Positions 2 through 24,037 of a DNA stretch of 30,481 nucleotides are shown piece after piece. The DNA is taken from positions 1 to 30,481 of the IMG/VR virus record IMGVR_UViG_3300013094_000186. One strand, written 5' to 3'. The position numbers were made by a program, and so were the translations under genes. The notes beneath the pieces were generated by a model. It made no database searches, was not told where the DNA came from, and saw nothing but the letters and a program-made list of their open reading frames with translations. Origin of the DNA: a virus. Each line of letters opens with the position of its first letter. Within the stretch, counting starts at the first letter, position 1.

Positions 2-121
2 GCAAAGACACTAACAGATGAGGAAATATGGCAGATTACCGAAGATTTTTGGAAAAGAGATTGGACAACGCTTGATGTTGGGTTTGCTAGAGCAATACTA
101 AGAAAGGCACAAGAGAAATGA
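2..121 (+). CDS. Partial small phage protein ending FARAILRKAQEK (5' truncated)
   Basis: An open frame runs in from the left edge and ends at the TGA at 119-121, leaving 39 residues. It closely resembles the C-terminal half of the next gene: both have a KTLTD(D/E)E segment and the same FARAILRKAQEK tail, and the last 40 bp (82-121) are identical to 288-327. The stop overlaps the next start as ATGA. It is therefore the 3' part of a tandem paralogue. The (L/P)T(D/E)xxI...(F)ARAI pattern recurs in the gene at 6131. Function is unknown; no catalytic motif is visible. Confidence 0.75.
   Translation, partial: AKTLTDEEIWQITEDFWKRDWTTLDVGFARAILRKAQEK
82..121 (+). repeat. 40-bp direct repeat, copy 1 (includes junction cassette)
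   Basis: These 40 bases are identical to 288-327. They encode the shared FARAILRKAQEK tail and end exactly on the A of ATGA. A second block, 4-28, matches 207-231 with one mismatch, offset by 3 nt relative to the 40-bp repeat. Confidence 0.9.
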
Positions 122-327
122 ACAATGAACCAGTAGCGTGGACTGCGTGTTTAGATTGTGGACAAAGAGTTACAGGCGATTCTATTCATACTTGCTCGCC
201 ACAACTAAAGACACTAACAGATGATGAAATAGACCATGTTTGGTTTAATTACGGCTGGGGAAGTGTTGAAAAAGATGATTTGATGAAGTTTGCTAGAGCA
301 ATACTAAGAAAGGCACAAGAGAAATGA
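118..327 (+). CDS. Small hypothetical protein, FARAI/KAQEK paralogue 2
   Basis: This 69-residue protein starts at the ATG overlapping the previous stop (ATGA). Its ribosome-binding site lies in the previous gene's last codons (AGG...AGAG). The N-terminus holds CLDCGQRV and a further cysteine (HTCSPQ), a possible small zinc knuckle. It is followed by KTLTDDEIDHVWFNYGW and the tail FARAILRKAQEK. The C-terminal half duplicates the upstream partial gene. I recognise no domain of known function. Family resemblance suggests a small phage accessory protein whose members recur in one genome. Coupling to both neighbours supports real translation. Confidence 0.75.
   Translation: MNNEPVAWTACLDCGQRVTGDSIHTCSPQLKTLTDDEIDHVWFNYGWGSVEKDDLMKFARAILRKAQEK
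288..327 (+). repeat. 40-bp direct repeat, copy 2
   Basis: This is the second identical copy, at the end of the next paralogue. The match ends precisely at the ATGA; the next coding sequence shows no similarity. Confidence 0.9.
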
Positions 328-533
328 GCTATTTTGTTGATGATATTTTTAGAAAACACGGATTGGTAGTTCCACTTGATGTAAAAAACGCATTAGACCT
401 TGACCAACAATATGCAATATTTGCTAATGTAATTTTATTAAGCCCTAATTCTATTCGTGAATTTTTACAGGAATTAGAAGAACGAATCGAAGATTCTGTT
501 TGGGAAAAGATAAGAAAGGCACAAGAGAAATGA
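324..533 (+). CDS. Small hypothetical protein with KAQEK tail
   Basis: This 69-residue protein starts by ATGA overlap with the upstream gene. The body (SYFVDDIFRKHGLVVPLD, then an acidic helix near LEELEERIED) is unrelated to the two preceding paralogues. Its last six residues, RKAQEK, and the underlying 23 nt are nonetheless identical to theirs. It looks soluble and mostly helical, with no signal peptide, membrane segment or catalytic motif. It ends by ATGA overlap with the glycosyltransferase gene, so it probably supplies that gene's ribosome-binding site. Function is unknown. Confidence 0.7.
   Translation: MSYFVDDIFRKHGLVVPLDVKNALDLDQQYAIFANVILLSPNSIREFLQELEERIEDSVWEKIRKAQEK
511..533 (+). 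repeat. 23-bp junction cassette, copy 3
   Basis: Bases 511-533 match 99-121 and 305-327 exactly (23 nt) and end on ATGA, at the tail of an otherwise unrelated gene. The cassette supplies the ribosome-binding site and start of the glycosyltransferase gene. Confidence 0.85.
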
Positions 534-1234
534 GGATTGCAGTAATCACTCCGACTATTGGGACTGATTGGTTGCCTCAAGCTATGCATAGTGTAGGCAA
601 TGATGCCGAGCATTGGATAGTAGTTGATGGTCTTGCTTACGCTACACGAGTTGCTAGCATGATTCAGGCACATCCATATAAGCAGAGCTTCATTGTGCTT
701 CCTGAGAACACTGGAACGCCTATTCAAGGGTTTAATGGTTTACCCTATACTGGGTTTTATAACGGTTACAGGATCAATGCCGCCATTCCATTCCTAACCA
801 ATGCAGATTATGTAATGTTTTTGGACGAAGATAACTGGTATGAACCAAACCATATATCTTCCATGGTAGAGGCTTTAGAAAAGAATAATTGGGACTGGTG
901 TTATAGTCTTAGACGGATTGTAGATAAAGAGGGCAATTTCTTATTTAACGACGAATCGGACAGCCTAGGAAATGCTCCTAGCTGGGAGGGTGGCTATACA
1001 TTTGTGGATATGAACTGTTATTTATTCAAGAACTGCGTGATTAACCGTATATCTCAAAGACTATTCCACACCCTTGATCCGTATAACGGGGATAAAGAAT
1101 TGTTTAAAGCAGCCAGTAACCAATTTCCAAACTTTGGTGGTACAGGGCTTTACACAGTGAATTACAGACTTACAAAACCTAATCAAAAAGATTGGTATGC
1201 AAAAGGAAACGAGAGGAAAAAGAATGGAAACTAA
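530..1234 (+). CDS. GT-A family glycosyltransferase-like protein
   Basis: This 234-residue protein begins IAVITPTIGTDWLPQAM, the usual first strand of family-2 type (GT-A fold) glycosyltransferases. The metal-binding acidic motif is FLDEDNWY (D99-E100-D101). The first half thus looks like a nucleotide-sugar domain and the second half like an acceptor region. I chose the ATG at 530 because it overlaps the preceding stop as ATGA and follows the AGG/AGAG ribosome-binding cassette. A TTG 30 nt upstream is less likely. It is followed, with 11 nt overlap, by a second GT-like gene. Substrate is unknown; lipopolysaccharide, virion protein or modified DNA bases are all possible. Confidence 0.8.
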   Translation: MRIAVITPTIGTDWLPQAMHSVGNDAEHWIVVDGLAYATRVASMIQAHPYKQSFIVLPENTGTPIQGFNGLPYTGFYNGYRINAAIPFLTNADYVMFLDEDNWYEPNHISSMVEALEKNNWDWCYSLRRIVDKEGNFLFNDESDSLGNAPSWEGGYTFVDMNCYLFKNCVINRISQRLFHTLDPYNGDKELFKAASNQFPNFGGTGLYTVNYRLTKPNQKDWYAKGNERKKNGN

Positions 1235-1976
1235 ACCGTATTTATTTGTAGCTACCCCGATGTATGGCGGTCTTTGTCATGGACAATACGCAGTAGGCAT
1301 TATGCGTTGCGTAGGAGTCTTTGGACAAGCTGGAGTCCAGATGCAGTACTCTTATATGATGAATGAGTCTTTGATTACTCGTGCTAGGGATGCAATGGCT
1401 TACGACTTCTTAGAAAGCGACTGCACCCATTTAATGTTTATTGATGCGGACATTGGCTTTAGAGCAGAGGACATCATTCCGATGATTGATGCTGATAAAG
1501 ACATTATCTGCGGGCTTTATCCAAAGAAAGAGATCAACTGGACACAGGTATCTGAGGCGGTAAAAGAAGGTAAGACTCCGCAAGAGCTATACGACTATAC
1601 GGGCGTATTTGTTTTGAATGCCGTTGATGGAGCTGCTGAAGTCTATATGACTTTAAGTGAGCCATGTGAGATTGCTAACGGTGGCACAGGATTTATGTTA
1701 ATTAAGCGTGAAGTGCTTGAAGGGTTGGCTGATAAGGTTCCGGAATACAACAGTGATATGTTTACTATCATTGATGAAGAGCGTAAGCCAAAAGTTATTA
1801 AGCAGTTCTTTGATACTAGTATTGATGTAGAAAACAATAACCGCTTGCTTTCCGAAGACTATCATTTTTGTAAGCTGGCTAGAGAAAATGGATACAAGGT
1901 GTGGGCTGCTCCCTGGGCACGATTATCTCATTGTGGCTCTTACATCTTTAGCGGTGCACTAAGGAGTGCAGAATGA
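1224..1976 (+). CDS. Glycosyltransferase-like protein (GT-A, DxD motif)
   Basis: This 250-residue protein starts at 1224 behind a clear GAGAGG ribosome-binding site. It opens with LFVATPMYGGLCHGQY and carries MFIDADIGF (D74-A75-D76), the DxD metal site of GT-A transferases. ESLITRARDAMAYDFL before the DxD and GGTGFMLIKREVLE after it match the Anp1-like/GT2-type proteins common in tailed phages. It overlaps the upstream glycosyltransferase by 11 nt, so the two probably act together. No membrane segment is visible, which suggests a cytoplasmic enzyme. The sugar and acceptor cannot be told from sequence. Confidence 0.8.
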   Translation: METKPYLFVATPMYGGLCHGQYAVGIMRCVGVFGQAGVQMQYSYMMNESLITRARDAMAYDFLESDCTHLMFIDADIGFRAEDIIPMIDADKDIICGLYPKKEINWTQVSEAVKEGKTPQELYDYTGVFVLNAVDGAAEVYMTLSEPCEIANGGTGFMLIKREVLEGLADKVPEYNSDMFTIIDEERKPKVIKQFFDTSIDVENNNRLLSEDYHFCKLARENGYKVWAAPWARLSHCGSYIFSGALRSAE

Positions 1977-2119
1977 GTTCTTGGTTAATTATTGTTACAG
2001 GGTTAATTTATGCGTACATCGGACTGGAGCAAGGGTTTAAAGGGAATGTTGCTTTATGCATTACCTACTGTGCTTATTCTGCTGCTAATGTGGGTCTTTA
2101 TATGATGGCGACAAAATGA
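1973..2119 (+). CDS. Small membrane protein (48 aa)
   Basis: This short frame starts by ATGA overlap with the glycosyltransferase gene and ends by ATGA overlap with the next gene. Coupling at both ends makes it a likely real gene despite its size. It opens with a hydrophobic segment (WLIIVTGLIYAYIGLEQG) and has a second apolar stretch (VALCITYCAYSAANVGLYMM), consistent with two membrane helices. No homologous family is recognised. It could be an inner-membrane accessory protein working with the next, also membrane-anchored, product. Confidence 0.65.
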   Translation: MSSWLIIVTGLIYAYIGLEQGFKGNVALCITYCAYSAANVGLYMMATK

Positions 2120-2484
2120 AAAATGATTGGCAAAGAGCGTATTGGCAGGGCTATTGGTCTGGATCTTTGATTGGGATTATCGGCTGTATAGTTGGGCTAT
2201 ATATTGGTACACATGCTAAATTAGCATGTAGCCAAACCTTATGGGATAACAGTCCTATGAACTTTAAAAATAGCGAGTTGAACTATAATAACAGCCCGCA
2301 AAATTTTAATAACAGCCCAATGGACTATCACAACAGTACTGTAAATCCGTACAGTGGGGTTTACGATAATAGCGGAAGTCGTATTGGCTATGAAACAATC
2401 AGTCCTAGTGGTGTTCAAAACTACTACGACAACAACGGAAACAGAGTAGGATACAGAGGAGAAAGCAATGGTAGATTACAGTGA
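2116..2484 (+). CDS. Membrane-anchored protein with NSPxNF heptad repeats
   Basis: This 122-residue protein has one membrane segment at about residues 15-32 (SGSLIGIIGCIVGLYIG). Five consecutive 7-residue repeats follow, beginning at N45: NSPMNFK, NSELNYN, NSPQNFN, NSPMDYH, NSTVNPY. The C-terminus has two copies of a DNxGxRxGY unit (DNSGSRIGYE and DNNGNRVGYR). The layout suggests an N-terminal anchor with a regular Asn-rich repeat domain, probably a short beta-structured rod outside the cytoplasm. The start is fixed by ATGA overlap with the small membrane protein upstream. No enzyme motif is seen; function is unknown. Confidence 0.75.
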   Translation: MKNDWQRAYWQGYWSGSLIGIIGCIVGLYIGTHAKLACSQTLWDNSPMNFKNSELNYNNSPQNFNNSPMDYHNSTVNPYSGVYDNSGSRIGYETISPSGVQNYYDNNGNRVGYRGESNGRLQ

Positions 2485-2638
2485 AGCATTTTTAAGATTA
2501 GATAAGTCTTTAAGATCAGTTTATGAGTTGCTGCTTAAAAACAAAAAGGATGAAGCAGAGGCTTTATTGCTAGAAATGGCTCAGATTGCGGTGATTACTG
2601 CTTCATGGATAAAGAATGAAGATAACGAACAAGTATAA
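2468..2638 (+). CDS. Small hypothetical protein (56 aa)
   Basis: An ATG at 2468 follows GGAGAAAGCA, a good ribosome-binding site inside the end of the previous gene. The frame runs to TAA at 2636-2638 and overlaps the nuclease gene start by 23 nt. The product is a charged, helical polypeptide (EAFLRLDKSLRSVYELLLKN, then EAEALLLEMAQIA) with no recognised domain. Overlaps on both sides and the ribosome-binding site support it. Function is unknown; its position suggests co-expression with the recombination module. Confidence 0.6.
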   Translation: MVDYSEAFLRLDKSLRSVYELLLKNKKDEAEALLLEMAQIAVITASWIKNEDNEQV

Positions 2639-3506
2639 TCTTCCGCAAACTTTTCTCAATGTGGCTAAGCGTCCTGCTTACACAAAGGGGAAGGCACACG
2701 TATCGGCTACTGAGCTTCTCAATAGTCCACGCATAGTCCAGCTTAAGAAAAAGTATGACGATCAGATTGAGACCGATGTGTCCGATATGATTTGGTCTAT
2801 TATTGGAACCGCAATTCACGGAGTATTGGAGCATGGGAAAGATGCTAACCACATTGTTGAGCAAAGACTACATGAAGTACTTGATGGTTGGCATATTTCT
2901 GGCGCTATTGACCTGCAAATTGTACATCCTGATGGCATAGAGATTAACGACTACAAGAATGTAGGCGTATGGTCTGTCATGAACGAGAAGATTGAGTGGG
3001 AGCAACAGCTCAATATCTATGCTTGGTTAGTCGAGAAGGTTAAAAAGACGCCAGTAGTTAAGCTAGCCATCATCGCTATCATCCGTGATTGGAATCGTAG
3101 GGATGCCAAGACTCGTGAGGGTTATCCCCAATGCCAAGTGGAAACAATTCCGATTACTCTATGGCCTATGGAGCAACGAGAAGAATTTATTCGTAATAGA
3201 ATACATATTCAGTCAGAAGGGTTATTCGCCATGGAGACTGGAGAAGTGCTACCATTATGTACACCGGATGAGATGTGGGAAAAGCCTACAACTTATGCGG
3301 TTAAGAAGGAGGGAGCTGCACGGGCAAAGTCTGTCCATGCAGATTTAGAGGAAGCCGAAGAAGCGTTAGAAAAAGCAGGCAAAGGATATGCTCTAGAAGT
3401 TAGAGAAGGTGAGCGCACCCGTTGTGCAAACTTTTGTCCAGTGTCTGAATTTTGTGACCAATACAAATCTTACTTAGAGGAGAAACAAAATGAGAAAGCA
3501 AGTTGA
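2616..3506 (+). CDS. PD-(D/E)XK exonuclease, Cas4/RecB-like with four-Cys cluster
   Basis: This 296-residue protein has the RecB-type nuclease signature in order: H68 in IGTAIH, D99 in SGAIDL, D112 and K114 in NDYKN, and Q131/Y135 in QQLNIYAW. Cysteines at 215, 270, 274 and 280 (LCTPDE, then RCANFCPVSEFC) match the iron-sulfur cluster of Cas4 and AddB nucleases. Such phage proteins trim DNA ends to expose single strands. The ERF annealing protein follows downstream, so together they form a Red-like recombination module. Length and motif spacing are normal, and the enzyme looks intact. Family assignment is firm; polarity and the metal cluster are inferred. Confidence 0.88.
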   Translation: MKITNKYNLPQTFLNVAKRPAYTKGKAHVSATELLNSPRIVQLKKKYDDQIETDVSDMIWSIIGTAIHGVLEHGKDANHIVEQRLHEVLDGWHISGAIDLQIVHPDGIEINDYKNVGVWSVMNEKIEWEQQLNIYAWLVEKVKKTPVVKLAIIAIIRDWNRRDAKTREGYPQCQVETIPITLWPMEQREEFIRNRIHIQSEGLFAMETGEVLPLCTPDEMWEKPTTYAVKKEGAARAKSVHADLEEAEEALEKAGKGYALEVREGERTRCANFCPVSEFCDQYKSYLEEKQNEKAS

Positions 3507-3696
3507 AATTAAAAACACACCAATCGTAACAGGTCAATTAAGCGAAGAGCTTGGCGTAACATTAAGCAAAGAGTTTATTATGCACAAGCTAAAAGTTAAG
3601 CCATTGTTGGAAACAAAGACAAGCGCTTACTGGGATGATGTTAAGTTAATTCAAGCACGACTTGGCGCATACTTTACTAGAATCTCAAAACTGTAA
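3490..3696 (+). CDS. Small hypothetical protein, possible DNA-binding
   Basis: This 68-residue protein starts behind GAGGAG inside the end of the nuclease gene (17 nt overlap). It contains GQLSEELGVTLSKEFIMHKL and then TSAYWDDVKLIQARLGAYF. That is a pair of helices with a possible recognition-like segment, as in small winged-helix or excisionase-type proteins, but the match is too weak for a family name. There is no signal peptide or membrane segment. Position between nuclease and annealing protein genes suggests a role in replication or recombination. Confidence 0.65.
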   Translation: MRKQVEIKNTPIVTGQLSEELGVTLSKEFIMHKLKVKPLLETKTSAYWDDVKLIQARLGAYFTRISKL

Positions 3697-3705
3697 GAGA
3701 AAAAA

Positions 3706-3930
3706 ATGAGCTATGAACAATTTGTCATGGGGTACAGAAGATATACAACAACCGCTAGATCATTATCCGAAGCATTTAGAGATGCAGATTATGCAACACC
3801 TATCTGGAGATGTGAGACGGATTATGACCGAACAAAGCATTACTTACAGGAGATTGCAATATTTGCGGCACTGTTTGTGGTTGCATTTTCAATCTTTGGA
3901 TCGGGACTCTACGCATGGATAACAAGATAA
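3706..3930 (+). CDS. Small single-pass membrane protein
   Basis: This 74-residue product has a charged N-terminal domain (SYEQFVMGYRRYTTTARSL, then TDYDRTKHYLQE) and one C-terminal membrane helix (IAIFAALFVVAFSIFGSGLYAW). It is therefore probably C-tail anchored in the inner membrane. The start follows AAGAG, and the end overlaps the DUF3310 gene by 16 nt. An alternative frame at 3713 is a shadow. Function is unknown. Confidence 0.65.
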   Translation: MSYEQFVMGYRRYTTTARSLSEAFRDADYATPIWRCETDYDRTKHYLQEIAIFAALFVVAFSIFGSGLYAWITR

Positions 3931-4160
3931 AAGCCAATGAATATCAGGTTGCCGGTACTCATTATTCTGACAATGCCATTCAGCCTTGGGATTATATTGT
4001 GGCTAATGGGCTGGGATACCTTGAAGGAAACATTATTAAGTACACGACTCGCTGGCGCAGGAAAGGCGGGATACAGGATCTTGAAAAAGTTATTCACTAC
4101 GCACAGAAACTAATTGAAGTAGAAAACTTAAGAAAACTGAAAGAGGAACACGATAAATGA
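3915..4160 (+). CDS. DUF3310 (SaV-like) protein
   Basis: This 81-residue protein fits the DUF3310 family closely. It has GTHYSDNAIQPWDYIVANGLGYLEGN, then the helical IIKYTTRWRRKGGIQDLEKVIHYAQKLIE. The family is widespread in phage early regions and is sometimes labelled a nucleotide kinase, without firm proof. Length is typical. It overlaps the upstream membrane-protein gene by 16 nt and the ERF gene by ATGA, so it belongs to the recombination operon. Confidence 0.88.
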   Translation: MDNKIKANEYQVAGTHYSDNAIQPWDYIVANGLGYLEGNIIKYTTRWRRKGGIQDLEKVIHYAQKLIEVENLRKLKEEHDK

Positions 4161-4846
4161 GTATTTATAAAAAGTTACAAGAAGCACGAATAATGCTTCA
4201 GAATACAAAACTAAAGAAGTCTGGACACAATAAGTTTGCCAACTACTATTACTTTGAGTTGGGTGACTTTTTGCCAGAGATCCAAAATATTTGCCAAAAG
4301 GTTGGCATGTGCGGAGTGGTAGCGTTTAATAAAGAAGATGCATATCTAACCATTTATGATACAGATGATGGTAGCTTTGCTACATTTACATCTCCTATGT
4401 CTAGCGCTGCATTAAAAGGCTGCCACGATGTTCAAAACTTGGGCGCAGTGCAAACCTATCTGCGTCGCTATTTATGGGTCAATGCATTTGAGATTGTGGA
4501 GCATGACGCATTAGAGCCATTGACTGGAAAAGAAACACCAGTTATTATACAAGCACCTAAAGTGTCTAATATCCCTGCTCCAGAGAAAGCCGTTGAGAAA
4601 GCCATTAAAACAAGCAAGGAATGGCATTTGATACCAGAGGGTGAAGAAGGCTCTCCTGAGTGGATTAAAGGGCTTATAGCAGGCGCTAATGTATTATTAG
4701 AGACTGCATCAACATCAGACGATGTAGCAAACATATTCAAAAATAATCGGTCAGTCTTTGACATCTTTAAAGCCAAAGATGAACCCGCTTATTCAGAATT
4801 AATGAGTAAATTTTCAGAAACCAAAAAAGCACTAGCGAAGGAGTAA
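4157..4846 (+). CDS. erf: ERF superfamily single-strand annealing recombinase
   Basis: This 229-residue protein carries the ERF core. The N-terminal helix MSIYKKLQEARIMLQ is followed by a strand-rich part (AYLTIYDTDDGSFATF) and the hallmark QNLGAVQTYLRRYLWVNAF at about residues 93-111. ERF proteins, like Red beta, form rings on single-stranded DNA and anneal complementary strands. The C-terminal third (from about residue 160) is helical and variable, as in the family. It is coupled by ATGA to DUF3310 and followed by an SSB-like gene, consistent with partnership with the PD-(D/E)XK nuclease. Function is well supported by motif and context. Confidence 0.88.
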   Translation: MSIYKKLQEARIMLQNTKLKKSGHNKFANYYYFELGDFLPEIQNICQKVGMCGVVAFNKEDAYLTIYDTDDGSFATFTSPMSSAALKGCHDVQNLGAVQTYLRRYLWVNAFEIVEHDALEPLTGKETPVIIQAPKVSNIPAPEKAVEKAIKTSKEWHLIPEGEEGSPEWIKGLIAGANVLLETASTSDDVANIFKNNRSVFDIFKAKDEPAYSELMSKFSETKKALAKE

Positions 4847-4849
4847 TAA

Positions 4850-5125
4850 ATGGACTATCCAAATCAAGGAACCATGTGGCACAACCAAGAGAAAAAGCAC
4901 CCAAAGGCACCAGACTTTGCAGGCTCTATGTTGTTTGAGAAAGCGTTTCTACAAGACTTAATTGAAAAGTCTAAGAATGGTGAAGTAGAGCTTAAACTAG
5001 ATCTTTGGAAGGGTAAGGTAAACACTCGTAACGGCGAGCGCAATGTATTAAATGTAAAAGTTAACACATATGTTAAGCCCGATGAGCAAGCACAATCTTC
5101 TGCAAAAGATCCATGGGATGAGTAA
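4850..5125 (+). CDS. Putative small single-stranded-DNA-binding-like protein
   Basis: This 91-residue protein starts behind AAGGAG (7 nt spacing). The body has two strand-like stretches (VELKLDLWKGKV and NVLNVKVNTYV) around a basic turn (NTRNGERN), as in a minimal OB fold. It ends in an acidic, aromatic tail, DPWDE, like the partner-binding tips of SSB proteins. The start, GTMWHNQEKKHPKAPDFAGSM, recalls DUF736-type phage proteins. Location directly after ERF supports single-strand binding. The call rests on composition and context rather than a strong family match. Confidence 0.5.
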   Translation: MDYPNQGTMWHNQEKKHPKAPDFAGSMLFEKAFLQDLIEKSKNGEVELKLDLWKGKVNTRNGERNVLNVKVNTYVKPDEQAQSSAKDPWDE

Positions 5126-5550
5126 TGGAGACTAGTCAGTTTGAAGCTAAAAAGGTAGCTCTTAAGCAGACTAAGGATGGGTATGCTATGACGTTAGCTA
5201 TCCATCCAGATGATCTTCCTGATGAGATTATGCGGGATTTTGTGGGTGCCAGGTATATGGTTGTTATGGTTAGGCTTAACGATAATGAAGAGCCATTAAA
5301 CCGTGAAGAGTTTGCGGGCGCTCAAATGGTTAAGCTAGCAGGAATGCTTTGCCGAGATAAAGACTTTTGGGAATTCTTGCACGAAGAAGGAAGCCTATTC
5401 CAAAAGACTGAAGCAGAATGTGTTGAATGGATGCAAAATTATTTAGTCGTTAGCTCTAGATCTGAAATCAAGACTAACCTAGCCGCTCAAAAGGCGCTTA
5501 AAGATATCTATGCGGAGTATAAAGAGTGGAAAACGACAAAGAATACATGA
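5125..5550 (+). CDS. Phage hypothetical protein (141 aa)
   Basis: The start overlaps the preceding stop as TAATG. The 141-residue protein has a strand-rich N-terminal half (VALKQTKDGYAMTLAIHPDD, then ARYMVVMVRLND) and a helical C-terminal half (DKDFWEFLHEEGSLF, ECVEWMQNYLVV, LKDIYAEYKEWK). Similar proteins sit beside recombination genes in other phages, where they are unnamed. No catalytic motif is apparent. Coupled context suggests an accessory to replication or recombination. Confidence 0.72.
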   Translation: METSQFEAKKVALKQTKDGYAMTLAIHPDDLPDEIMRDFVGARYMVVMVRLNDNEEPLNREEFAGAQMVKLAGMLCRDKDFWEFLHEEGSLFQKTEAECVEWMQNYLVVSSRSEIKTNLAAQKALKDIYAEYKEWKTTKNT

Positions 5551-5720
5551 GATTTTTAGCGGCTTGCTTTGCCATTGTGGGTGGAGCTACGCCTAGGATT
5601 GCCGTAAATATTGCAGATGAGCTTATAGAGGAGCTAGAAAATGAAAAGATTACTGATGGCGGTATCGCTGCTGTGGTGCCTAAACGCAAGCGCAGGAGTA
5701 ATAGCGGAGATGCCAAATAG
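5526..5720 (+). CDS. Small hypothetical protein (64 aa, GTG start)
   Basis: A GTG at 5526 has a GGAG 8 nt upstream, giving a 64-residue product. An ATG at 5547, overlapping the previous stop as ATGA, would give 57 residues. I favour GTG for its ribosome-binding site, but either may be used. The product has an apolar N-terminal helix (MRFLAACFAIVGGATPRIAVNIADELIEELE) and a very basic C-terminus (PKRKRRSNSG). It overlaps the next gene by 80 nt. Function is unknown. Confidence 0.55.
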   Translation: MENDKEYMRFLAACFAIVGGATPRIAVNIADELIEELENEKITDGGIAAVVPKRKRRSNSGDAK

Positions 5721-5928
5721 GGGTGGCGGATCCATTGCTTTGACTAATGTCCCATGTAAGTCTAAAGAAAAATCTTGGGTTGCCTATTCTTATTTAAAGA
5801 GTGGGGAATCATTCTTAGGATGTTGGGTTATGGAAAGCGAAAGAGTATTCATTATTTGGAATGACGGGGATCTGCGATCCTACGATGCCAATTACTTTAT
5901 TATGACAGGCGCTAAGAAATACCTATGA
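5641..5928 (+). CDS. Secreted small protein with signal peptide
   Basis: This 95-residue product begins with a textbook signal peptide: K2-R3, hydrophobic LLMAVSLLWCL, then NASA with predicted cleavage after residue 18. The mature part (EMPNRGGGSIALTN, ...CKSKEKSWVAYSY, GCWVMESERVFIIWNDGDLRSYDANYF) has two cysteines, probably a periplasmic disulfide. Similar small secreted proteins occur in phages and genomes of betaproteobacteria, with no defined function as far as I know. The gene starts inside its neighbour and ends by ATGA. A superinfection-exclusion or envelope role is possible but is inference. Confidence 0.75.
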   Translation: MKRLLMAVSLLWCLNASAGVIAEMPNRGGGSIALTNVPCKSKEKSWVAYSYLKSGESFLGCWVMESERVFIIWNDGDLRSYDANYFIMTGAKKYL

Positions 5929-6134
5929 ACGCAAATGAACTAGCTGATTGGATTGAAGATGATAGCGTTGTTGACATAATGCTTACATCACAAGAGCATT
6001 ATCGGGGTTTAGTAGCCACCATGCTACGCCAGCAACAAGCTGAAATAGAGGCGTTGAAAAACAAAATAAAAAGTTACGAAAACTTAGGAAATATGATGCT
6101 TGACGAATTATTAGAAAAGGCACAAGAGAAATGA
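5925..6134 (+). CDS. Small coiled-coil protein with KAQEK tail
   Basis: This 69-residue protein starts by ATGA overlap. The central helix QQQAEIEALKNKIKSYENL looks like a short coiled coil, preceded by an acidic segment (ELADWIEDDSVVD). The end, LLEKAQEK, and the underlying 19 nt are identical to the junctions at 99-121, 305-327 and 511-533, although the rest is unrelated. It ends by ATGA overlap with the next gene. Function is unknown. Confidence 0.7.
   Translation: MNANELADWIEDDSVVDIMLTSQEHYRGLVATMLRQQQAEIEALKNKIKSYENLGNMMLDELLEKAQEK
6116..6134 (+). repeat. 19-bp junction cassette, copy 4
   Basis: Bases 6116-6134, AAAGGCACAAGAGAAATGA, match the other three junctions over 19 nt. They lie about 5.6 kb away, at the end of a coiled-coil gene unrelated to the rest. 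Confidence 0.85.
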
Positions 6135-6316
6135 CCACCTTCACCACACAAGACCGATTAGATGCGCAACGTACCCCGTTGACAGAGCGACAAATCAGCG
6201 AGATATTTAACGCAGTATTCGGGTGGGGCGATCCCAGCAATGACGAAGTTGAGTTTGCCCGCGCCATCGAACGCGCCCACGGAATTGGTGATACATACCA
6301 CCAGATTGAAGATTGA
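6131..6316 (+). CDS. Small phage protein, distant FARAI paralogue
   Basis: This 61-residue protein starts by ATGA overlap. Its core, LTERQISEIFNAVFGWGDP...VEFARAIERAHGI, has the same LTxxxI...FARAI layout as the genes at 2 and 118, so it is a distant paralogue about 6 kb away. Proteins of this type are common in phages of betaproteobacteria, with unknown function. It ends at TGATG, coupling to the next ORF. Confidence 0.7.
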   Translation: MTTFTTQDRLDAQRTPLTERQISEIFNAVFGWGDPSNDEVEFARAIERAHGIGDTYHQIED

Positions 6317-7129: not shown

Positions 7130-7477
7130 CTACAGCTCCAAGGGATCAAAGCCAAGTTCATCCGAAACTACCTTGGCTCTACGCTTAAATTCCTTATCGT
7201 GAGCAGCCCATCTATCGTTAGACCAGCGGCTCATATGGATGCATTCGTGGCATAACACTCTGATTACGGTGTTCAAATGGGCGCATTTCTCAGTTGAAAT
7301 GGTAATCGTATGCTCAAATTCCTCACCATCTTCATAGATATAGGTGCCCATAGCATCGGTATCTTTATCAGCAACAAACTTAACCTGCTCTGGCAAAGGC
7401 ATATTCCACCGATGAAATGGCTTCATGCAATAGATTGCAGAGTAAAGATTCTGAAGGATTGCTGGTGTTAATTTCAT
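7130..7477 (-). CDS. SprT-like zinc metalloprotease
   Basis: This 115-residue protein has the zinc motif HECIH (residues 77-81) in VLCHECIHMSRW, a further histidine at 93 (AAHDKEFKRRAKVVSDELGF), and a short beta part before it. This matches the small SprT-like (Spartan-type) domain found in many phages. The domain cleaves or binds protein on DNA in cellular relatives; the phage role is unknown. Its start overlaps the HNH gene by ATGA. It is the last gene of the minus-strand block. Confidence 0.82.
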   Translation of the reverse strand: MKLTPAILQNLYSAIYCMKPFHRWNMPLPEQVKFVADKDTDAMGTYIYEDGEEFEHTITISTEKCAHLNTVIRVLCHECIHMSRWSNDRWAAHDKEFKRRAKVVSDELGFDPLEL

Positions 7478-8034
7478 ACTTTAAACCTATTCCCCTTGCT
7501 AGAATTCAACATAGGATCTAATAATTGTAAGTTTTCCCAGCAATGCAATCCACATACGTTTTCGCCCTGCAAAGGTATTACGTGATCTACCGCAAAACCC
7601 CATTCTTTTGCTTTAATGTAAACGGTTTCAACTAAATCCTTCTCAAACCAAGGTGGCGTAGCTTGCAGTTTTGTAGACCTATATTTTGCTAACCAAGCAG
7701 TTCTTTTGCCACGATTGGCCTCTCGATATTTCTTTTGATATTCATATGATTTATCAGGATTTAATTTTCTGTAAGAATTGTTTTTGTTATAAACATCTTT
7801 TTTATTTAATGCGTACCAATCTTTTTTGACTTGACTGACTTTTTCTGGGTTTTCTTGACGGTATTTTGCAACAGTTTGCTTTACCTTTTCAGAATTAGCT
7901 TGATAGTATTGTTTATCTCCCTGACGTTTGCATAATTTGCACTCAGTAGATAACCCGTCTTTTTTACTTTTGTTACGTCCAAAAGCATCTAAAAACTTGG
8001 TTTCTTGGCATTTATAGCAATATTTCGTCAACAT
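7474..8034 (-). CDS. HNH endonuclease with N-terminal zinc finger
   Basis: This 186-residue protein has CYKC (C6, C9) and CKLC (C32, C35) as an N-terminal zinc finger. A lysine-rich helical middle with repeated EKVKQ/EKVSQ-like units follows. The C-terminal HNH core is VDHVIPLQG (D150-H151), GLHCWENLQ (H164, N168), N177 and K180. This is the layout of phage homing-type endonucleases, which cut alleles lacking them. It overlaps the metallophosphoesterase gene by 7 nt and SprT by ATGA, so it inserted without breaking the operon. It appears intact. Confidence 0.85.
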   Translation of the reverse strand: MLTKYCYKCQETKFLDAFGRNKSKKDGLSTECKLCKRQGDKQYYQANSEKVKQTVAKYRQENPEKVSQVKKDWYALNKKDVYNKNNSYRKLNPDKSYEYQKKYREANRGKRTAWLAKYRSTKLQATPPWFEKDLVETVYIKAKEWGFAVDHVIPLQGENVCGLHCWENLQLLDPMLNSSKGNRFKV

Positions 8035-9065: not shown

Positions 9066-12000
9066 TTATTTTAATGCTTTTACCCGTTCATTGAAATTTG
9101 TCATAATCACTTGTTTGCGATCATTTAGAGCTTTAATGCGCTCTTCTGGAAGGCCACGCTTTTCAGCATCTTTGATCTGTTTGTTGATCTGAGATATTTG
9201 ATTCTCTGCATTATTAGCTTGTTGCCATAAACGAGCATCAGGGTTTTCCCTAATAAAGTCTGCAACATTTTCTTTACGCTCACGCATTCCTTTAATGGTT
9301 GACTCATACTCAGCCATCTTGGTTACGTTGTCATAGAAGTGCTGTGAATTGGCTGCAGGAGAATTAATATCTCCGTAGAAACGACCAGCCAACGGAATTT
9401 GATAGCTTGGTAATTCTTCAGTCTTACCCTCTGCAATAGCGGTTGCAGTTTTACCAATCTTCATTGCTTCACGTCCAGCACCACCAGTAACCTGACCTAC
9501 TAGGTAATCTAATTGATCCGCTGTTGGGCTTAGGAAACCTTTGGTATCTTCTGTACCACCAGTGATATAGTTAATCGCTTCAGCAACGGCTTTATTAACT
9601 TCTGTAGCCTGCTCACGAGAGCGAGCAAATCCTGGAGTAGGAGCAGTGGCACGATCTTCTTTAGAGATTGGACGACCAAATGCATCTTTATTGGTTGCCA
9701 AAGCCACTACTGGATCCAATACGGTAGGAGAAATAGTCTGTAGAGATAAGTCACCACCACCCATTGGGTTAAATGCGTCCGCAACTACAGCTGCCATATC
9801 GCCAGCGTGCTTAATAAAGTTTCCATGCAATCCAGTTTCTACCGCTAAACGCCCAATGTTTGGCAAGAAATGTAGACCTAATGGATAAGGAATGGCAACA
9901 TAACCACCTTCACTTAATGGATTTGGAATAATAAAGTTACGAGACTTAACAAACTCTGGTGGATCATTCTCATCAAATCCAGCCATAGCCATCATACCTG
10001 CTTGCAGGGCGCCAAGACCAATACCACCCATAATAATCTTTTTGCCAGCGGGACCTTTAAGAGTTTGAACCATACGAGCGGTACCTTGAGCGGACGCATT
10101 AAAGAACGCAAAGTAGTTATTAATTGCAGTACCGTAAGCACCCTTGCGGTCAAAGTTAACAGTTAACTCTTTGGCTAAGGTTGCGGCTCTATCAATAGAC
10201 AAACCTTTTTCTTTGGCTACTTTATAAGCCGATAAACGAATAGCGTTTTCAATAGAATCATTAAAGTCTGATAAGCCATTAAAGAAAGCGCTAGCTCTTT
10301 TTTTAGCAGCACTGCTATGAAGTTTGTTGATCTTTTCGTTAATGATGTTTTCTTGATCTGCACGTCTAGATAGTTGTTCACGGTACAGTGTTTGACCGCC
10401 ATTCTCTCTAAATTCTTTGTACAGTTTGCCCATTTCTGTATCTGGATATCCGCCACCTTTACGCTCATCACGCATGGTTTTTAAGATAGTACCCATGGCT
10501 TCTTTAATACCACCAGCAACAGCCTTTTGCTCACCCCTAAGTTCAGTGTTAGATAAGTTAGCCATAGCGGAACCAAAGTCACGCATAAAGTTCAATGCCC
10601 CAAACACTGGGTTCCATTGAGTATTAACCTTAGCCATCCATTGGGTGACTTTACCAATTTGCTGACCAGCTAGTCCGACCGTTGGGGTATCCATACCACG
10701 GAAAGATTTAACCATATTGGCGGATACTGGATTCTTTTTGTTAAAGAAAATATAGCTGTCTTCACCATTAATACGAATGGGAAGAACGTTATTTTTGTAG
10801 CGCTCTAAAGGATTTGTCTTGTAAACAACCTTATCCAATCCGGTGTTAGGATCTTTAACAATGGTGCGAGTTTGACGCTCTTGCATCATACCCACTATAT
10901 CTTTCCCGTCTAATCCCATAGCATCTAGCTCTCTAGCTAAAAGCTCAGGATTCTTAATGGCTTTAGGGCTTACAGGAAGCCATAGGTCTGGATTAGGATA
11001 TTTAATTGCCAAGCCATATAGGGCATGGTCAACCTCCATCTTAGCTGCGTTTTCGATTGCAATTTCACGCTGTCTAATAACGCTGTTTAGAATATCTAAG
11101 ACATCCCGCTCAGAACCCATAGCCCGCTTTTCAAATACATTTCTAGCTGCCATGCTTCTGCCAACGGTAGAGTTATTCATAAACTCTTCTTCCATATCCC
11201 GTTGCAATGGAACGTATTCATCTCCGTAGGTTCTACGCCAAGCATCAACAACATCTTGCTTAATTTGACCAGACTTAACTAAAAGATCTTGTGTACCTTT
11301 AACGATCTTATATACGTCCTGAGCAACGTCTTCTAATGCTTTGCGTTTAGCTTCTGGTAATGCTTTTAGATAAGCCTCAGCATCTTTTGTAGATATACCA
11401 GATCCACGATCCTTTAACGCATACTCATGGGTAATACCATTCTCATCCACAATATCTGGATTAACCTTATTCATTTGCTCATTACGTTTTGGAGCATGCT
11501 TATTGTGCAAGTAATCCGTAACTTCTTTTGTGGTAAGTTTAAGAGAATCAATCTTCTTAGCTAATGGCTCAAGATCATTCTCATCAAACAATCTGAATTC
11601 GTTTGCTGATTTACTGCGCCATAGGCCATCCTTAAGATAAGGATTAAACTTGTCTGCAATCTCACCAAAATTCTTTTTAATAGCTTCAACAGTACGTTTT
11701 AAATCAATATGTTTATCCTGGAATTTGCGAACAATATTTTCTTCTATCCAGCTATTAGGTGTAACCTCCCAATTGGAAGATACATTTTGTCCAAGAACGT
11801 TACGAGCGGTTTCTTTTTTCTTTTCAACTTGTTCAAACTTAGCTCTAGTAATTTCTGGTGCCTTAGTAGCCTTTAGCTTACCTTCCGCTGCCTGACCAAA
11901 GATATCTTCTGCATTCTTAAATCCACGACCACGCAATACATTTCCAACACGCTTAAGCGCATCAATAGCTTTAGCCATAATCGATCTAACTTTAGGAGGC

Positions 12001-14174
12001 TCAGTTCTATAGTCTGCAAAAGCCTTAGCAATTGCTTCCTCTATCTGACCTTCCATTGGTAGATGACCATAATCTTTGGAAATGTCATACTTCTTCATCC
12101 AATCAGACTGGGCTTTTCTAGATAATGTATCCCAATCTTTTGGAGAAAAGAATCCGTGATCCTTCATAGCGTGCAAAGCTTCGTGGTTCATTGTTCTATG
12201 AATGTTGTCTCCGTTTAAAGAGAGCGCAATCATATTGTCAAAATAAGCACCGTTAACCGATTCCATCTTGCCAGCAACACGGGCATTTAAAGAATCCGAT
12301 AATTGAAGACCAATATCTTTTAAACCCATTTGGTCTAATGAACTTCTTAGGGTTTTCCCTAATGACTCTGCATCACCCGCAAATTTAGGAGTATGTGATG
12401 CGGCCTGTCTTTCAAATGGAATATCTTCATCCAAATCAATTCTACGTTGACCGGTCAAAGACTCTTCTGGTGTCTGACCTAACTCAAAGTCTTGAGCACG
12501 CTCTTGGCTGCGCCTTTCAATCTCTTTACGATCACGCTCTGCTTGGGCATCCATTTCTGCTTGAAGTTCTTCATCTTCTCTAGCTTTTCTAGCGGCTTCT
12601 TCTTGAGCCATGCGAGCCTGTGCTTGCTCTGGAGTTTCTTGAGTTTGAAATTGTTTATTAAATTCTTCAACTTCACGGTCTCTTGCTTCCATTTCTGCAC
12701 GGATACGGTCTCCTTCAGCCATATCTGAGTCATGCATATTAACAAGGAAGTCCACCATCTTCTTTTCGTTAGGTGTAAGCTTCTCTCCGTTTAATGCTTT
12801 ATTAACTGCTTTTTGGGTTGCCCGTCCATTGATGTCACCCTTAAGATTTACTGGGCGATCAAACCACCAATTGGCATTTGGTGTCCATCTAGTTCTACCA
12901 ATTACGGGAGAAGAGTAATCGTCTGCTACCTCTCTAATTATTTTTCCGCCAATTTCAGACCATCCAGCTTCATCCGCATAACGCTTAAGGCTTGCTTGAA
13001 CTTCGGGATCCTCTAATCTATTTACAGGGACTGGCTCGACTTTTACAGGCTCAGGAACTGGTTCTTGTTTTTGAGTAAGCTTAGTAATAGGCTCCTCAGC
13101 AGGCACAATCTTAGGAGTTTCAGGAGGCAATTCTTTTTGAATTAAAGGCTCTGTTTTAATTGGCTCTGCAACAACAGGCTCAGCTTTAGCCTCTTCGGCA
13201 GGAGTAACTTCTGGCTGAATTATTGGTTTAGCTTCATTAATAAACTCTGGGTGTTCGTAACCAGGCTCCATAGACTTTATCATCATTGCTGTGTCTTGAG
13301 ACTGGGATGGAGGAACGTACTCTGGGCTAACTGCTTTTTCAGGTGGTATTTCTGGGATGATATTGGGCGTAACTTCTGGCTCTGGTCTACGGAATGCAGC
13401 AACAGCAGCACGTTGAGCAGGAGTGCCTACGAATTCACCAGCACGTACAAGCCCTCTACCAAGCGCTGTTTCTTTCTGACCTAATGCACCGCCTAGTGCA
13501 GCGATACCGACTCTTCCGTAATCCATAGGCTCTTCGCCCATAGCTTGCTGGCCTGCCTCCATACCAGCACCAACACCGGTATTGAGGATAGCGTTTCCTA
13601 CGGCAGCTGTTTTCTCTGCTGCCAATTGTTTTGCGGCATCTTCAGCTAAACCTTTACCGCTTCTAAGTAATGCGCCACTAGGACGGAATGCTGCAAGGTT
13701 AGGGAGCAACTCGCCGGTAAATGATGCATATGGATGTTCTTTAGCTTCTTTAGCTGCAGTTTCTGCATCAATACCTAAGAACTTAGCCGTTTCAGGATGT
13801 GCCTTTAAGAACTCTTCTTGAGCTGCGGCTGCGGCTGCAGATGACGCAAAGCCAGCACCGAGTCCACCAGCAATGGTACCAACTGGACCAGCAGCTGTGC
13901 CTACTGTAGCACCAGCAGCGCCACCGATAAGACCTGCTGCAGATGGAACAATACTACGCAATACTCCATGACCAAGAGCAGCTATACCGCTAGTCTCTGG
14001 TTCTGCTTCAGCAACCGGAACGCCAAAACGCTGCCTAATTGCATCTTTGGTAGCATCATTTGCACCTGAGAAGTCATTATCTAAAGCAGAATACTTATCA
14101 AAGATAGCCTGCTTAGTTGCTTCATTTGCATTGACATAGTTCGGATCCTCTAGGATCTCCATCAAACTAGGCAT
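9066..14174 (-). CDS. Giant ejected/polyvalent virion protein (T7 gp16-like position)
   Basis: This 1702-residue protein is the largest gene. The N-terminus has two copies of an AN(E/D)ATK(Q/D)AI unit, then a glycine/alanine-rich apolar stretch (about residues 70-125). A proline/glutamate-rich linker lies at about 265-400 and a charged coiled region at about 480-570. HEALH at 664-668, with EEAIAKAFADY near 712, is a zinc-metallopeptidase pattern. The C-terminal region (about 1180-1500, with NTQWNPVFGALNFMRDFG) resembles the LPD38 domain of large polyvalent phage proteins. It follows the GNAT-like, Gln-rich and transglycosylase genes, matching the ejection set of T7 (gp13-gp16). It probably enters the host with DNA. 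Peptidase activity is inferred from motif only. Confidence 0.82.
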   Translation of the reverse strand: MPSLMEILEDPNYVNANEATKQAIFDKYSALDNDFSGANDATKDAIRQRFGVPVAEAEPETSGIAALGHGVLRSIVPSAAGLIGGAAGATVGTAAGPVGTIAGGLGAGFASSAAAAAAQEEFLKAHPETAKFLGIDAETAAKEAKEHPYASFTGELLPNLAAFRPSGALLRSGKGLAEDAAKQLAAEKTAAVGNAILNTGVGAGMEAGQQAMGEEPMDYGRVGIAALGGALGQKETALGRGLVRAGEFVGTPAQRAAVAAFRRPEPEVTPNIIPEIPPEKAVSPEYVPPSQSQDTAMMIKSMEPGYEHPEFINEAKPIIQPEVTPAEEAKAEPVVAEPIKTEPLIQKELPPETPKIVPAEEPITKLTQKQEPVPEPVKVEPVPVNRLEDPEVQASLKRYADEAGWSEIGGKIIREVADDYSSPVIGRTRWTPNANWWFDRPVNLKGDINGRATQKAVNKALNGEKLTPNEKKMVDFLVNMHDSDMAEGDRIRAEMEARDREVEEFNKQFQTQETPEQAQARMAQEEAARKAREDEELQAEMDAQAERDRKEIERRSQERAQDFELGQTPEESLTGQRRIDLDEDIPFERQAASHTPKFAGDAESLGKTLRSSLDQMGLKDIGLQLSDSLNARVAGKMESVNGAYFDNMIALSLNGDNIHRTMNHEALHAMKDHGFFSPKDWDTLSRKAQSDWMKKYDISKDYGHLPMEGQIEEAIAKAFADYRTEPPKVRSIMAKAIDALKRVGNVLRGRGFKNAEDIFGQAAEGKLKATKAPEITRAKFEQVEKKKETARNVLGQNVSSNWEVTPNSWIEENIVRKFQDKHIDLKRTVEAIKKNFGEIADKFNPYLKDGLWRSKSANEFRLFDENDLEPLAKKIDSLKLTTKEVTDYLHNKHAPKRNEQMNKVNPDIVDENGITHEYALKDRGSGISTKDAEAYLKALPEAKRKALEDVAQDVYKIVKGTQDLLVKSGQIKQDVVDAWRRTYGDEYVPLQRDMEEEFMNNSTVGRSMAARNVFEKRAMGSERDVLDILNSVIRQREIAIENAAKMEVDHALYGLAIKYPNPDLWLPVSPKAIKNPELLARELDAMGLDGKDIVGMMQERQTRTIVKDPNTGLDKVVYKTNPLERYKNNVLPIRINGEDSYIFFNKKNPVSANMVKSFRGMDTPTVGLAGQQIGKVTQWMAKVNTQWNPVFGALNFMRDFGSAMANLSNTELRGEQKAVAGGIKEAMGTILKTMRDERKGGGYPDTEMGKLYKEFRENGGQTLYREQLSRRADQENIINEKINKLHSSAAKKRASAFFNGLSDFNDSIENAIRLSAYKVAKEKGLSIDRAATLAKELTVNFDRKGAYGTAINNYFAFFNASAQGTARMVQTLKGPAGKKIIMGGIGLGALQAGMMAMAGFDENDPPEFVKSRNFIIPNPLSEGGYVAIPYPLGLHFLPNIGRLAVETGLHGNFIKHAGDMAAVVADAFNPMGGGDLSLQTISPTVLDPVVALATNKDAFGRPISKEDRATAPTPGFARSREQATEVNKAVAEAINYITGGTEDTKGFLSPTADQLDYLVGQVTGGAGREAMKIGKTATAIAEGKTEELPSYQIPLAGRFYGDINSPAANSQHFYDNVTKMAEYESTIKGMRERKENVADFIRENPDARLWQQANNAENQISQINKQIKDAEKRGLPEERIKALNDRKQVIMTNFNERVKALK

Positions 14175-19793: not shown

Positions 19794-20087
19794 TTAAACC
19801 GTCGTTCCGCTAGCATTTACCCAATTGGTTCCGTTGTACCATATGGGAATGTTAAGGGTTGTATCAAAATAAAACAGCCCAATAGATAACTGTTTTGTAG
19901 GACGATCTGTGGTCGCCCCAGACAAGGGAATTGAAATTCCTTGGGTAAAAGTATCAATTTGGGAGAAATAAAGCCTTATTGTTTTTAAAATCTGCTCTTG
20001 GTAAGATTGTGAATAATCCGATGGTGCCGTAGGCAGGTTTGGAGACCTTGTCGGAAACTGTATTATATTCTTCGCTGCGGTAGCCAT
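19794..20087 (-). CDS. Small virion structural protein
   Basis: The ATG at 20087 gives 97 residues; it overlaps the upstream stop as TAATG. The N-terminus is low-complexity (IIQFPTRSPNLPTAPSDYSQ), then a helix, then LSIGLFYFDTTLNIPIWYNGTNWVNA. The last segment is a short beta motif seen in many phage collar, fibre and neck proteins. Location between nozzle and DUF4214 protein suggests a tail/neck component. No enzyme motif is present. Confidence 0.65.
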   Translation of the reverse strand: MATAAKNIIQFPTRSPNLPTAPSDYSQSYQEQILKTIRLYFSQIDTFTQGISIPLSGATTDRPTKQLSIGLFYFDTTLNIPIWYNGTNWVNASGTTV

Positions 20088-20707
20088 TATCTGCCCACCC
20101 AATGTGTACGCTCTAGCTCTTTACGAGCTGCTACAGCTTCTTCTATAGAAACGCAAGCTTTTGAATAGTACTTATTTTTTTTCACTGTAATTTCTGCATA
20201 CCATTTGCCTTGTCTAAAATGCACCCCAGTATGGCCAGATTTTGTAGTTTTTCGAATTTTTACATTTCTTGCTTGTACTGTAGGGGAAGCCCATCTGACA
20301 TTATTTGGCTCATAATTGCCAGCAGGATCAATCCTATCTAATGTTTCTGTACCAACTGGCTCACCCATAGCATCTCTAAACGTAGCATAGTCCATCCATG
20401 CTGGATAAACGGAAATTCCTTTTGCGCCATAACGCTTATAGTCTTTATCTTTAGGGTTTGTACATCTGCGAACCATAGCTCTCCAAGAGTTATAGGAAGC
20501 ATTTTTATAGCCGCCATGTTTAAAGTTAGGTATAACGCAGCCACAAGACTTGGTATTTCCTGTTATCAAACTACCAGCTACTACATCAATTTCATTGCCA
20601 CAATCACAACGGCATTTCCATAATACTTTTTTAAGAGCATTACGACCGGATTGCTCAACAACTATAAGTTTGCCAAAGCGCTGTCCTGTACGATCTACTA
20701 ATTTCAT
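20087..20707 (-). CDS. HNH-AP2 homing endonuclease
   Basis: The protein starts at the ATG at 20707 behind AAGGAG (206 residues); upstream in-frame codons lie over the nozzle gene and are unlikely. The N-terminus is a zinc finger (KCRCDCGNEI and SCGC; C32, C34, C36, C55, C57). An HNH-type core follows (YNSWRAMVRRCTNP, DRIDPAGNYEPNNVRW), then a C-terminal AP2 DNA-binding domain (GHTGVHFRQGKWYAEI). This is a typical mobile homing endonuclease. It inserted right behind the nozzle stop and ends flush with the next gene (TAATG), leaving its neighbours intact. It has its own promoter-like sequence at 20739-20767. Confidence 0.88.
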   Translation of the reverse strand: MKLVDRTGQRFGKLIVVEQSGRNALKKVLWKCRCDCGNEIDVVAGSLITGNTKSCGCVIPNFKHGGYKNASYNSWRAMVRRCTNPKDKDYKRYGAKGISVYPAWMDYATFRDAMGEPVGTETLDRIDPAGNYEPNNVRWASPTVQARNVKIRKTTKSGHTGVHFRQGKWYAEITVKKNKYYSKACVSIEEAVAARKELERTHWVGR

Positions 20708-20738
20708 ATCAAACTCCTTAAATAACATTGGAGTTTGT

Positions 20739-20769
20739 AGTATACATTTTTTTATTGTATCTGTATACA
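20739..20769 (-). promoter_or_regulatory. Promoter-like sequence and paired palindromes upstream of HNH-AP2 gene
   Basis: On the minus strand TATACA (20767-20762) and TATACT (20744-20739) are 17 nt apart, a sigma70-like arrangement (4/6 and 5/6 of consensus). The start would lie about 25 nt before the ATG at 20707. Two eight-base boxes, TGTATACA and TGTATACT, overlap these elements with centres 23 bp apart. The first is a perfect palindrome and the second differs at one base. This fits a promoter with possible repressor sites, but AT-rich sequence makes chance plausible. Confidence 0.4.
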
Positions 20770-20771
20770 TG

Positions 20772-23320: not shown

Positions 23321-24037
23321 ATGTTTGTATACGTTTGGAAACACAACGACATCCCTTTTTATGTTGGCATGACAAAATCTGCTGGCAGAGCTAACCCGCT
23401 TAATGCTGGTGGGCGTGGTTGGCTTTGTAAACAAACACTTAAAAAAATTGGACCAAAAAATGTAGTAACTGAGCTTCATACAGTAGACACCATAGAAGAG
23501 GCCAAAATATTAGAGCGTAGTTTAATAGAAAAGCACGGAAGAATACAGCTTGAAACAGGCACTTTAACTAATTTAAAGCCGGGAGGCGATGGATCTCCAG
23601 GAATGACTGATGCTGGGAAATTGGCTACCAGCAAACGGATGAAAGAAAACAATCCCATGTCTAGATCTGAAGTTCGGGCTAAACTAAATGCACGTATGAA
23701 CGATCCAGATGTAAAGGCTAAATTTACTGGAGAAAATAATCCAGCTAAACGTCCTGAAGTTCGTGCAAAAATTAAAGCTAAATGGGCAGATCCAGAATAT
23801 AAAGCAACTATGATTGCTAATAAAAAGGGGAAACAAATACACTCCAATGAAAGCAAAGAGGCTCGTAAACAAGCACTTTTAGATCCTAACCATCCAATAC
23901 ATGCTTTTAATAAAACCCTTAACTCTGATCCAGAAATTAAAGCCAAACGAGTTGCGGCTTTGCGGTCACCAGAAGTCCAAGCAAAAATATCTGCATCAAT
24001 GAAGTTGGCATGGGCTAAACGTAAAGGACTCATATAA
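23321..24037 (+). CDS. GIY-YIG homing endonuclease with NUMOD-like repeats
   Basis: This 238-residue protein is the only clear gene on the plus strand in the 7.1-30.5 kb region. The start FVYVWKHNDIPFYVGMTKSAGRAN is a GIY-YIG catalytic domain (VYV and YVG with a following Arg). The C-terminal two-thirds have NUMOD3-like repeated modules (NNPMSRSEVRAKL, ENNPAKRPEVRAKIKAKW, DPEIKAKRVAALRSPEVQAK), DNA-binding in such enzymes. AAGGAG precedes the ATG by 7 nt. It is probably a free-standing homing gene inserted between the nozzle and endolysin genes; it ends 4 nt before the endolysin stop. Confidence 0.88.
   Translation: MFVYVWKHNDIPFYVGMTKSAGRANPLNAGGRGWLCKQTLKKIGPKNVVTELHTVDTIEEAKILERSLIEKHGRIQLETGTLTNLKPGGDGSPGMTDAGKLATSKRMKENNPMSRSEVRAKLNARMNDPDVKAKFTGENNPAKRPEVRAKIKAKWADPEYKATMIANKKGKQIHSNESKEARKQALLDPNHPIHAFNKTLNSDPEIKAKRVAALRSPEVQAKISASMKLAWAKRKGLI

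Follow-up and report, generated by a model that had tools for sequence, protein, structure and literature searches.

A short sequence repeated at phage gene junctions is probably a recombination joint for the exchange of small genes

The virus record IMGVR_UViG_3300013094_000186 of IMG/VR, analysed here from position 1 to 30,481 (this whole stretch of 30,481 nucleotides is called the window), carries several copies of a short sequence at the junctions between neighbouring genes. Each copy, referred to here as a cassette, encodes the C-terminal residues KAQEK of one gene, contains a Shine-Dalgarno (SD) sequence and ends in ATGA, at which the next gene starts. Comparison of these junctions across phage metagenomes indicates that the cassette is probably a short-homology recombination joint, equipped with stop, SD and start, for the exchange of single small genes between phages. 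A preliminary description of the window had proposed either a module through which small genes are added or swapped while the stop/start overlap is preserved, or a recombination seam. Both proposals were borne out, and exchange is directly supported by transplanted gene units and by one-sided neighbour switching at near-identical partner flanks.

Scanning the window for the 18-nt core, AAGGCACAAGAGAAATGA, revealed exact copies at 104-121, 310-327, 516-533 and 6117-6134, all on the plus strand, and none at any other position. The expected number is 0.04 at up to three mismatches, and none of 100 shuffles reached four copies. As described before, the four junctions share 19-23 nt: the first three copies have 23 identical nt in common (TAAGAAAGGCACAAGAGAAATGA), and the fourth shares 19 nt with them (table 1). 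At all four, the upstream gene indeed ends in KAQEK and its TGA overlaps the ATG(A) of the next gene. The claim that identity stops at ATGA held on the downstream side, where the following bases are all different (AC, GC, GG and CC), while upstream copies 1 and 2 extend into a longer common block of 39 nt encoding FARAILRKAQEK and the stop. A ribosome-binding site is present too, as AAGG/AAAGG ten bases before the ATG and not as the AGAG suggested earlier.

The cassette is neither restricted to one genome nor tied to a constant set of flanking genes, since it was found at ATGA junctions with different neighbours in hundreds of IMG/VR records. All IMG/VR figures cover the matches listed: the exact 18-mer scan gave at least 120 stretches, many of which held between two and five copies, and scans of sub-sets (next base C, G or AC) each also gave lower bounds. 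The form without the A before the core was present in 60 stretches. Altogether we obtained at least 378 non-redundant cassette records; among the matches listed, 653 copies had the same orientation and 1 the opposite one. In each of the 50 longer whole records, which carried as many as nine copies, all copies were on a single strand, and the reversed control gave 0. Among all 18-mers in the listed loci, AAGGCACAAGAGAAATGA was the top repeated start-site sequence, with 522 contexts against 19 for the runner-up. A control pattern ending in ATGB, in which the last A is replaced by any other base, matched only 30 IMG/VR stretches for three bases, so roughly 10 stretches of the A form are expected by chance. 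Bacterial and archaeal genomes (257 Gb) contained 12 cassette stretches, about chance level, 4 of them being multi-copy contigs in metagenome bins. Among known phages and plasmids, the only match was MW202753.1, an environmental phage in GenBank that is recorded as a complete circular genome and has two exact copies; plasmids gave none.

Judged from their large terminases, the carriers are many unrelated bacterial viruses: TerL from 23 records fall into 9 groups that are less than 50% identical, and several groups include multi-copy carriers. We take most carriers to be of freshwater origin, based on the Manatee Spring record and on the IMG samples and metagenome-assembled genome (MAG) projects. 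The MAG bins in which carrier contigs occur bear the labels beta proteobacterium, cyanobacterium and Nitrosotalea. No 16S was found in those bins, and 16S from relatives of one of them ends in CACCTCCTTTC, which suggests a possible host only. Minor variant joints, each with several unrelated flanks, were also observed: AAGGCACAAGAAAAATGA, a KAQE form three bases shorter (AGAAAGGCACAAGAATGA), and the KASEK/KANEK variants AAAGCGAGTGAGAAATGA and AAGGCTAATGAGAAATGA.

The genes brought together by the cassette are diverse. The first 296 distinct sites comprised 71 upstream and 133 downstream protein clusters in 172 pairings. The TGA of ATGA serves as stop codon of the upstream gene in 452 of 526 contexts, giving co-directed genes with a 4-nt stop/start overlap at which translation would be coupled; the mechanism of such coupling is the subject of PMC6728339. 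Downstream genes were shorter than 100 aa in 397/500 cases. Among the downstream products were DNA polymerase A, cytosine methylase, amino acid:DNA transferase, radical SAM and FkbM methyltransferase proteins, YqaJ and PD-(D/E)XK nucleases and a transketolase-like protein, in addition to the glycosyltransferase of the window.

Exchange at the cassette was assessed with a seam test. In this test, one arm of 130-150 nt is near-identical between two records and the other arm is scored as related or unrelated; other true ATGA overlaps within 3 kb of cassettes served as control. When the matching arm was at least 95% identical, 51% of cassette pairs (103/200 by the left arm) had an unrelated opposite arm, compared with 18% of control pairs (68/385), counts that are not independent and come mostly from fragmentary records. 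At an arm identity of 98%, the values were 32% and 8%. When pairs were collapsed to arm clusters, switching remained at 41% versus 13% (P = 6e-7) and 40% versus 17% (P = 5e-5). The window itself gives examples: at 104, the left arm is 100% identical in record L298 with an unrelated right side, while the right side is 93% identical in L253 with an unrelated left side; at 6117, L125 is 99% identical on the left only. At the right seam, identity ended at ATGA with no further common base in 108/163 cases. The left seam was variable: identity mostly broke off 0 to 8 bases ahead of AAGG, and for one group, derived from the FARAI genes described below, this figure was 21. Crossovers in a short common stretch, with the start codon as fixed right limit, would be expected to leave this trace.

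Complete genes also appear between different neighbours. Among near-identical cassette-bounded units with both arms readable, 35 of 61 classified pairs had the same neighbours, and in 18 both neighbours were unrelated. The latter represent 8 unit families, with units 91-100% identical; the clearest is a 39-aa gene (MISKASVVLG...) that is 100% identical in L261 and L101 and flanked by unrelated genes on both sides. In a few records a gene lies between two cassettes where a relative has a single cassette, as expected of indels of cassette-bounded genes; a strict search for indels and swaps returned only 4 indel pairs and 1 swap.

Three further nucleotide-fixed blocks were found inside the EPVAW-LTDEEI-FARAI genes: AATGAACCAGTAGCGTGG, CCACTCTACACCCATCCA and ACACTAACAGATGAGGAAATA. 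At high arm identity these switch at 46-76%, compared with 1.1% at ordinary common 18-mers nearby, a loose baseline dominated by plain orthologous DNA. From its sequence organization, the EPVAW-PLYTHP-LTDEEI-FARAI family, whose window member has no Pfam match, looks like a series of variable segments on nucleotide-fixed joints, the junction cassette being the last. The two FARAI products of the window match each other in BLASTP. Genes 324 and 5925 had been considered unrelated to these paralogues, and their tail-trimmed products indeed gave no BLASTP match to FARAI proteins or to each other. The separation is not complete, however, because other phages carry the N-terminal module of gene 5925 (MNANELAD...MLRQQQAEIEALK) in fusion with LTDEEI-FARAIL C-termini, which makes this gene part of the same modular pool.

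One could suppose that the protein tail KAQEK is what is conserved, as a sorting, stability or binding tag, and that the DNA is kept as its code. The upstream C-terminus is read from the cassette in the 452 contexts that stop at ATGA. In 41 of the 526 contexts, however, the upstream stop is the TAA of TAAGAAAGG, ahead of the tail, which is not translated there; the third upstream frame is open through the cassette and would fuse both genes. KAQEK codon choice, moreover, is 95-100% fixed over 608 contexts. At orthologous junctions, counting only records with another exact cassette copy, the cassette differed by 2.5% compared with 14.2% in the arms, and its third codon positions by 4.2%. Because contexts stop at the TAA and third codon positions are fixed, the conserved thing is, from these comparisons, a DNA or RNA unit and not the protein tail. 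We ruled out the tag, which is scarcely credible against these TAA stops and fixed synonymous sites. Among 893 contexts with AAGG ten bases before ATG, the spacer is CACAAGAGAA in 525, and the next spacer is found in 22; by this measure the whole unit is kept, beyond the SD alone. Pairing of the 18-nt core with the standard anti-SD is predicted to be weak (-2.9 kcal/mol). AGAAAGG is predicted to form 7 bp (-7.9 kcal/mol) with the CCUUUCU end of betaproteobacterial 16S, which may not be the 16S of the host.

The cassette has a core of 18 nt and a usual form of 23 nt, TAAGAAAGGCACAAGAGAAATG(A). It provides all that is required to finish one gene and open another: a stop in two upstream frames (the early TAA, or the TGA in ATGA), an SD-like AAAGG at a workable distance and an ATG. 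Since these letters are common to the ends and starts of many genes in many phages, homologous recombination between any two copies could insert a new gene and leave stop, ribosome entry and start intact; recombinants would therefore be viable and the joint would spread further. Homologous recombination over 18-40 identical bases is thus the likeliest mechanism, presumably by phage or host functions acting at short identity, for which the Erf annealase and the PD-(D/E)XK exonuclease of the window are perhaps candidates. As to its origin, the joint may once have been the 3' end of FARAI-family genes.

Several observations weigh against an exchange joint. Other ATGA junctions switch too (13-17% of clusters), which makes the cassette an enriched site but not a unique one. 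A lone copy in a record may be due to chance, which by the ATGB control concerns roughly 10 of about 390. An indel was present in the cassette region in 12/60 orthologous pairs, and selection for a functional start element could alone keep the 18 nt fixed. Finally, a recombinase common to the carriers was not found: among 50 carriers, many of them fragmentary records, Erf was present in 11, RecT in 1 and YqaJ in 6. None of the three is general, and no single enzyme is therefore implied; host recombination or other annealases may serve.

That the cassette is mainly a regulatory translation-start element, with all 18-23 nt recognised by a protein, an RNA or the ribosome, seems unlikely to us, although it has a precedent in the start-associated sequences (SAS) of cluster K mycobacteriophages. 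SAS is short and asymmetric, occurs in many copies per genome in one orientation at the starts of varied non-structural small genes, overlaps upstream stops, includes an SD (core AGGAG) and is conserved beyond SD pairing (PMC3203893). PMC11373665, in which its role was still unknown, speculates that the DUF3310 protein of mycobacteriophage Adephagia takes part in the translation of SAS genes. The cassette is similarly multi-copy and on a single strand, lies directly upstream of the starts of clustered small genes, overlaps upstream stops and is fixed past the SD, as the CACAAGAGAA spacer illustrates; the window also encodes a DUF3310 protein. DUF3310 was, however, present in only 18/50 carriers and was rejected as a common translation factor, and no other factor common to the carriers was found. 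Fixation and switching of the same kind also mark the NEPVAW, PLYTHP and TLTDEEI blocks, which lie inside genes and are not junction starts, and the conserved length on the left varies by partner. The 13-bp SAS sequence GGGATAGGAGCCC had 0 matches in the window at up to two mismatches. As to a core SD, the cassette has only AAGG/AAAGG, which may or may not act as one through the predicted 7-bp pairing of AGAAAGG. The cassette includes stop and start whereas SAS ends 3-7 bp before the start codon, and spans unrelated phages whereas SAS is confined to one phage cluster and has not been described as a gene-exchange seam. On this unlikely start-element reading, the letters would be fixed by selection for control of a set of early genes, and gene shuffling would be a by-product.

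Artefacts and simpler histories fare worse. Nearly all records are metagenome contigs, and the 39-nt FARAI block could confuse small k-mers, so that chimeric assembly at short repeats might mimic switches. Most switch pairs, however, have only 18-26 nt in common across the seam, which is at or below the smallest usual assembly k. Both arms are kept in different records for 87-108 cassette pairs, the effect is much weaker at the ordinary-junction control, and MW202753.1, recorded as a complete circular genome, holds two copies. With seams that mostly span fewer than 27 common bases, and with many junctions found again in separate records, we consider an assembly artefact highly unlikely. Copies 1 and 2, which lie in tandem paralogues, could have arisen by simple duplication and gene conversion within a single phage lineage. 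Such a history is contradicted by unrelated flanking genes, by phages with TerL less than 50% identical and by unit transplants between records, and we give it very little credence. A bolder extension of the exchange joint is conceivable, if doubtful: unrelated aquatic phages might share an integrase-free gene-cassette economy, with one fixed joint and intragenic companion joints, in which any member trades single small genes or gene segments with any other; the joint would be maintained either because exchangeability is selected for or through a dedicated factor that acts on it.

The exchange joint has counterparts in known systems. In the boundary (linker) model, a short conserved sequence between genes is the target of homologous recombination (summarised in PMC3233612). 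The cassette is likewise short and conserved and lies between genes, and by the genome comparisons modules are exchanged at it. Boundaries in the lambdoid nin region are reportedly particular to each junction, whereas one and the same cassette sequence is used at hundreds of junctions, often several in a genome, and its carriers have unrelated terminases. As in integrons, a repeated short sequence flanks single genes, which are exchanged as whole units. Cassette genes, however, overlap by ATGA, and no integrase is implicated, with no search aimed at integrases in the carriers. A hairpin or attC-like site was ruled out, as no stable inverted repeat was found in the cassette and folding was no better than that of shuffled sequence (z-scores 0.4 to 1.9). 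The gp38 of T-even phages is said to recombine at glycine-rich conserved motifs inside a variable gene; the blocks described here likewise are crossover points between variable segments, but in small non-structural genes, with the last block doubling as a gene junction.

We did not find the cassette described in the open-licence papers searched. The idea is old, as lambdoid boundary sequences and mycobacteriophage SAS illustrate, while the scale, the use of a single sequence in multiple copies by unrelated phages and the clean unit swaps are new. Phage mosaics have long been disputed as products of recombination at short conserved boundaries or of random joining followed by selection (PMC3233612, PMC3945230). 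With hundreds of natural, countable exchange points and a matched control in ordinary ATGA junctions, the boundary model therefore becomes quantitatively testable. As a marker, the cassette could further help to detect mobile accessory genes in metagenomic phage sequences, and it offers a natural linker at which translation stops and restarts.

Table 1. Cassettes, fixed joints and neighbouring genes in the window.
Feature	Position	Strand	Remarks
Cassette copy 1 (TAAGAAAGGCACAAGAGAAATGA)	99..121	+	C-terminal RKAQEK and stop; SD-like AAAGG; ATGA = start of gene 118
Cassette copy 2	305..327	+	joins gene 118-327 to gene 324-533
Cassette copy 3	511..533	+	joins gene 324-533 to family 2 glycosyltransferase gene 530-1234
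Cassette copy 4 (19 nt shared)	6116..6134	+	joins gene 5925-6134 to gene 6131-6316
39-nt block, FARAILRKAQEK and stop, with copy 1	83..121	+	
39-nt block, FARAILRKAQEK and stop, with copy 2	289..327	+	
Second nucleotide-fixed joint, ATGAACAATGAACCAGTAGCGTGG	118..141	+	at gene start; MNNEPVAW
Third nucleotide-fixed joint, AAAGACACTAACAGATGATGAAATA	207..231	+	inside gene; KTLTDDEI; same block at 4-28
EPVAW-LTDEEI-FARAI family small gene	118..327	+	69 aa
Gene ending in KAQEK	324..533	+	69 aa; unrelated to FARAI genes
Glycosyltransferase family 2 gene	530..1234	+	started by copy 3
PD-(D/E)XK exonuclease	2616..3506	+	cassette strand; possible recombination partner
Erf-type single-strand annealing protein	4157..4846	+	cassette strand; candidate recombinase
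Possible single-strand DNA binding protein	4850..5125	+	weak match, E 3e-4
Gene with MNANELAD/MLRQQQ N-module	5925..6134	+	69 aa; KAQEK end
Gene started by copy 4	6131..6316	+	61 aa; diverged FARAIE segment

Elsewhere in the window, the DUF3310 protein is encoded at 3915-4160, and a near-repeat run at 2239-2420, within gene 2116-2484, encodes NNSPxNFNNSPxxYxNS-like peptides. Three open reading frames (23321-24037 on the plus strand, 20087-20827 and 7474-8034 on the minus strand) resemble GIY-YIG or HNH homing endonucleases by eye and lie among structural genes. The minus strand at 9066-14174 encodes a 1702-aa protein with the large polyvalent protein domain LPD38.

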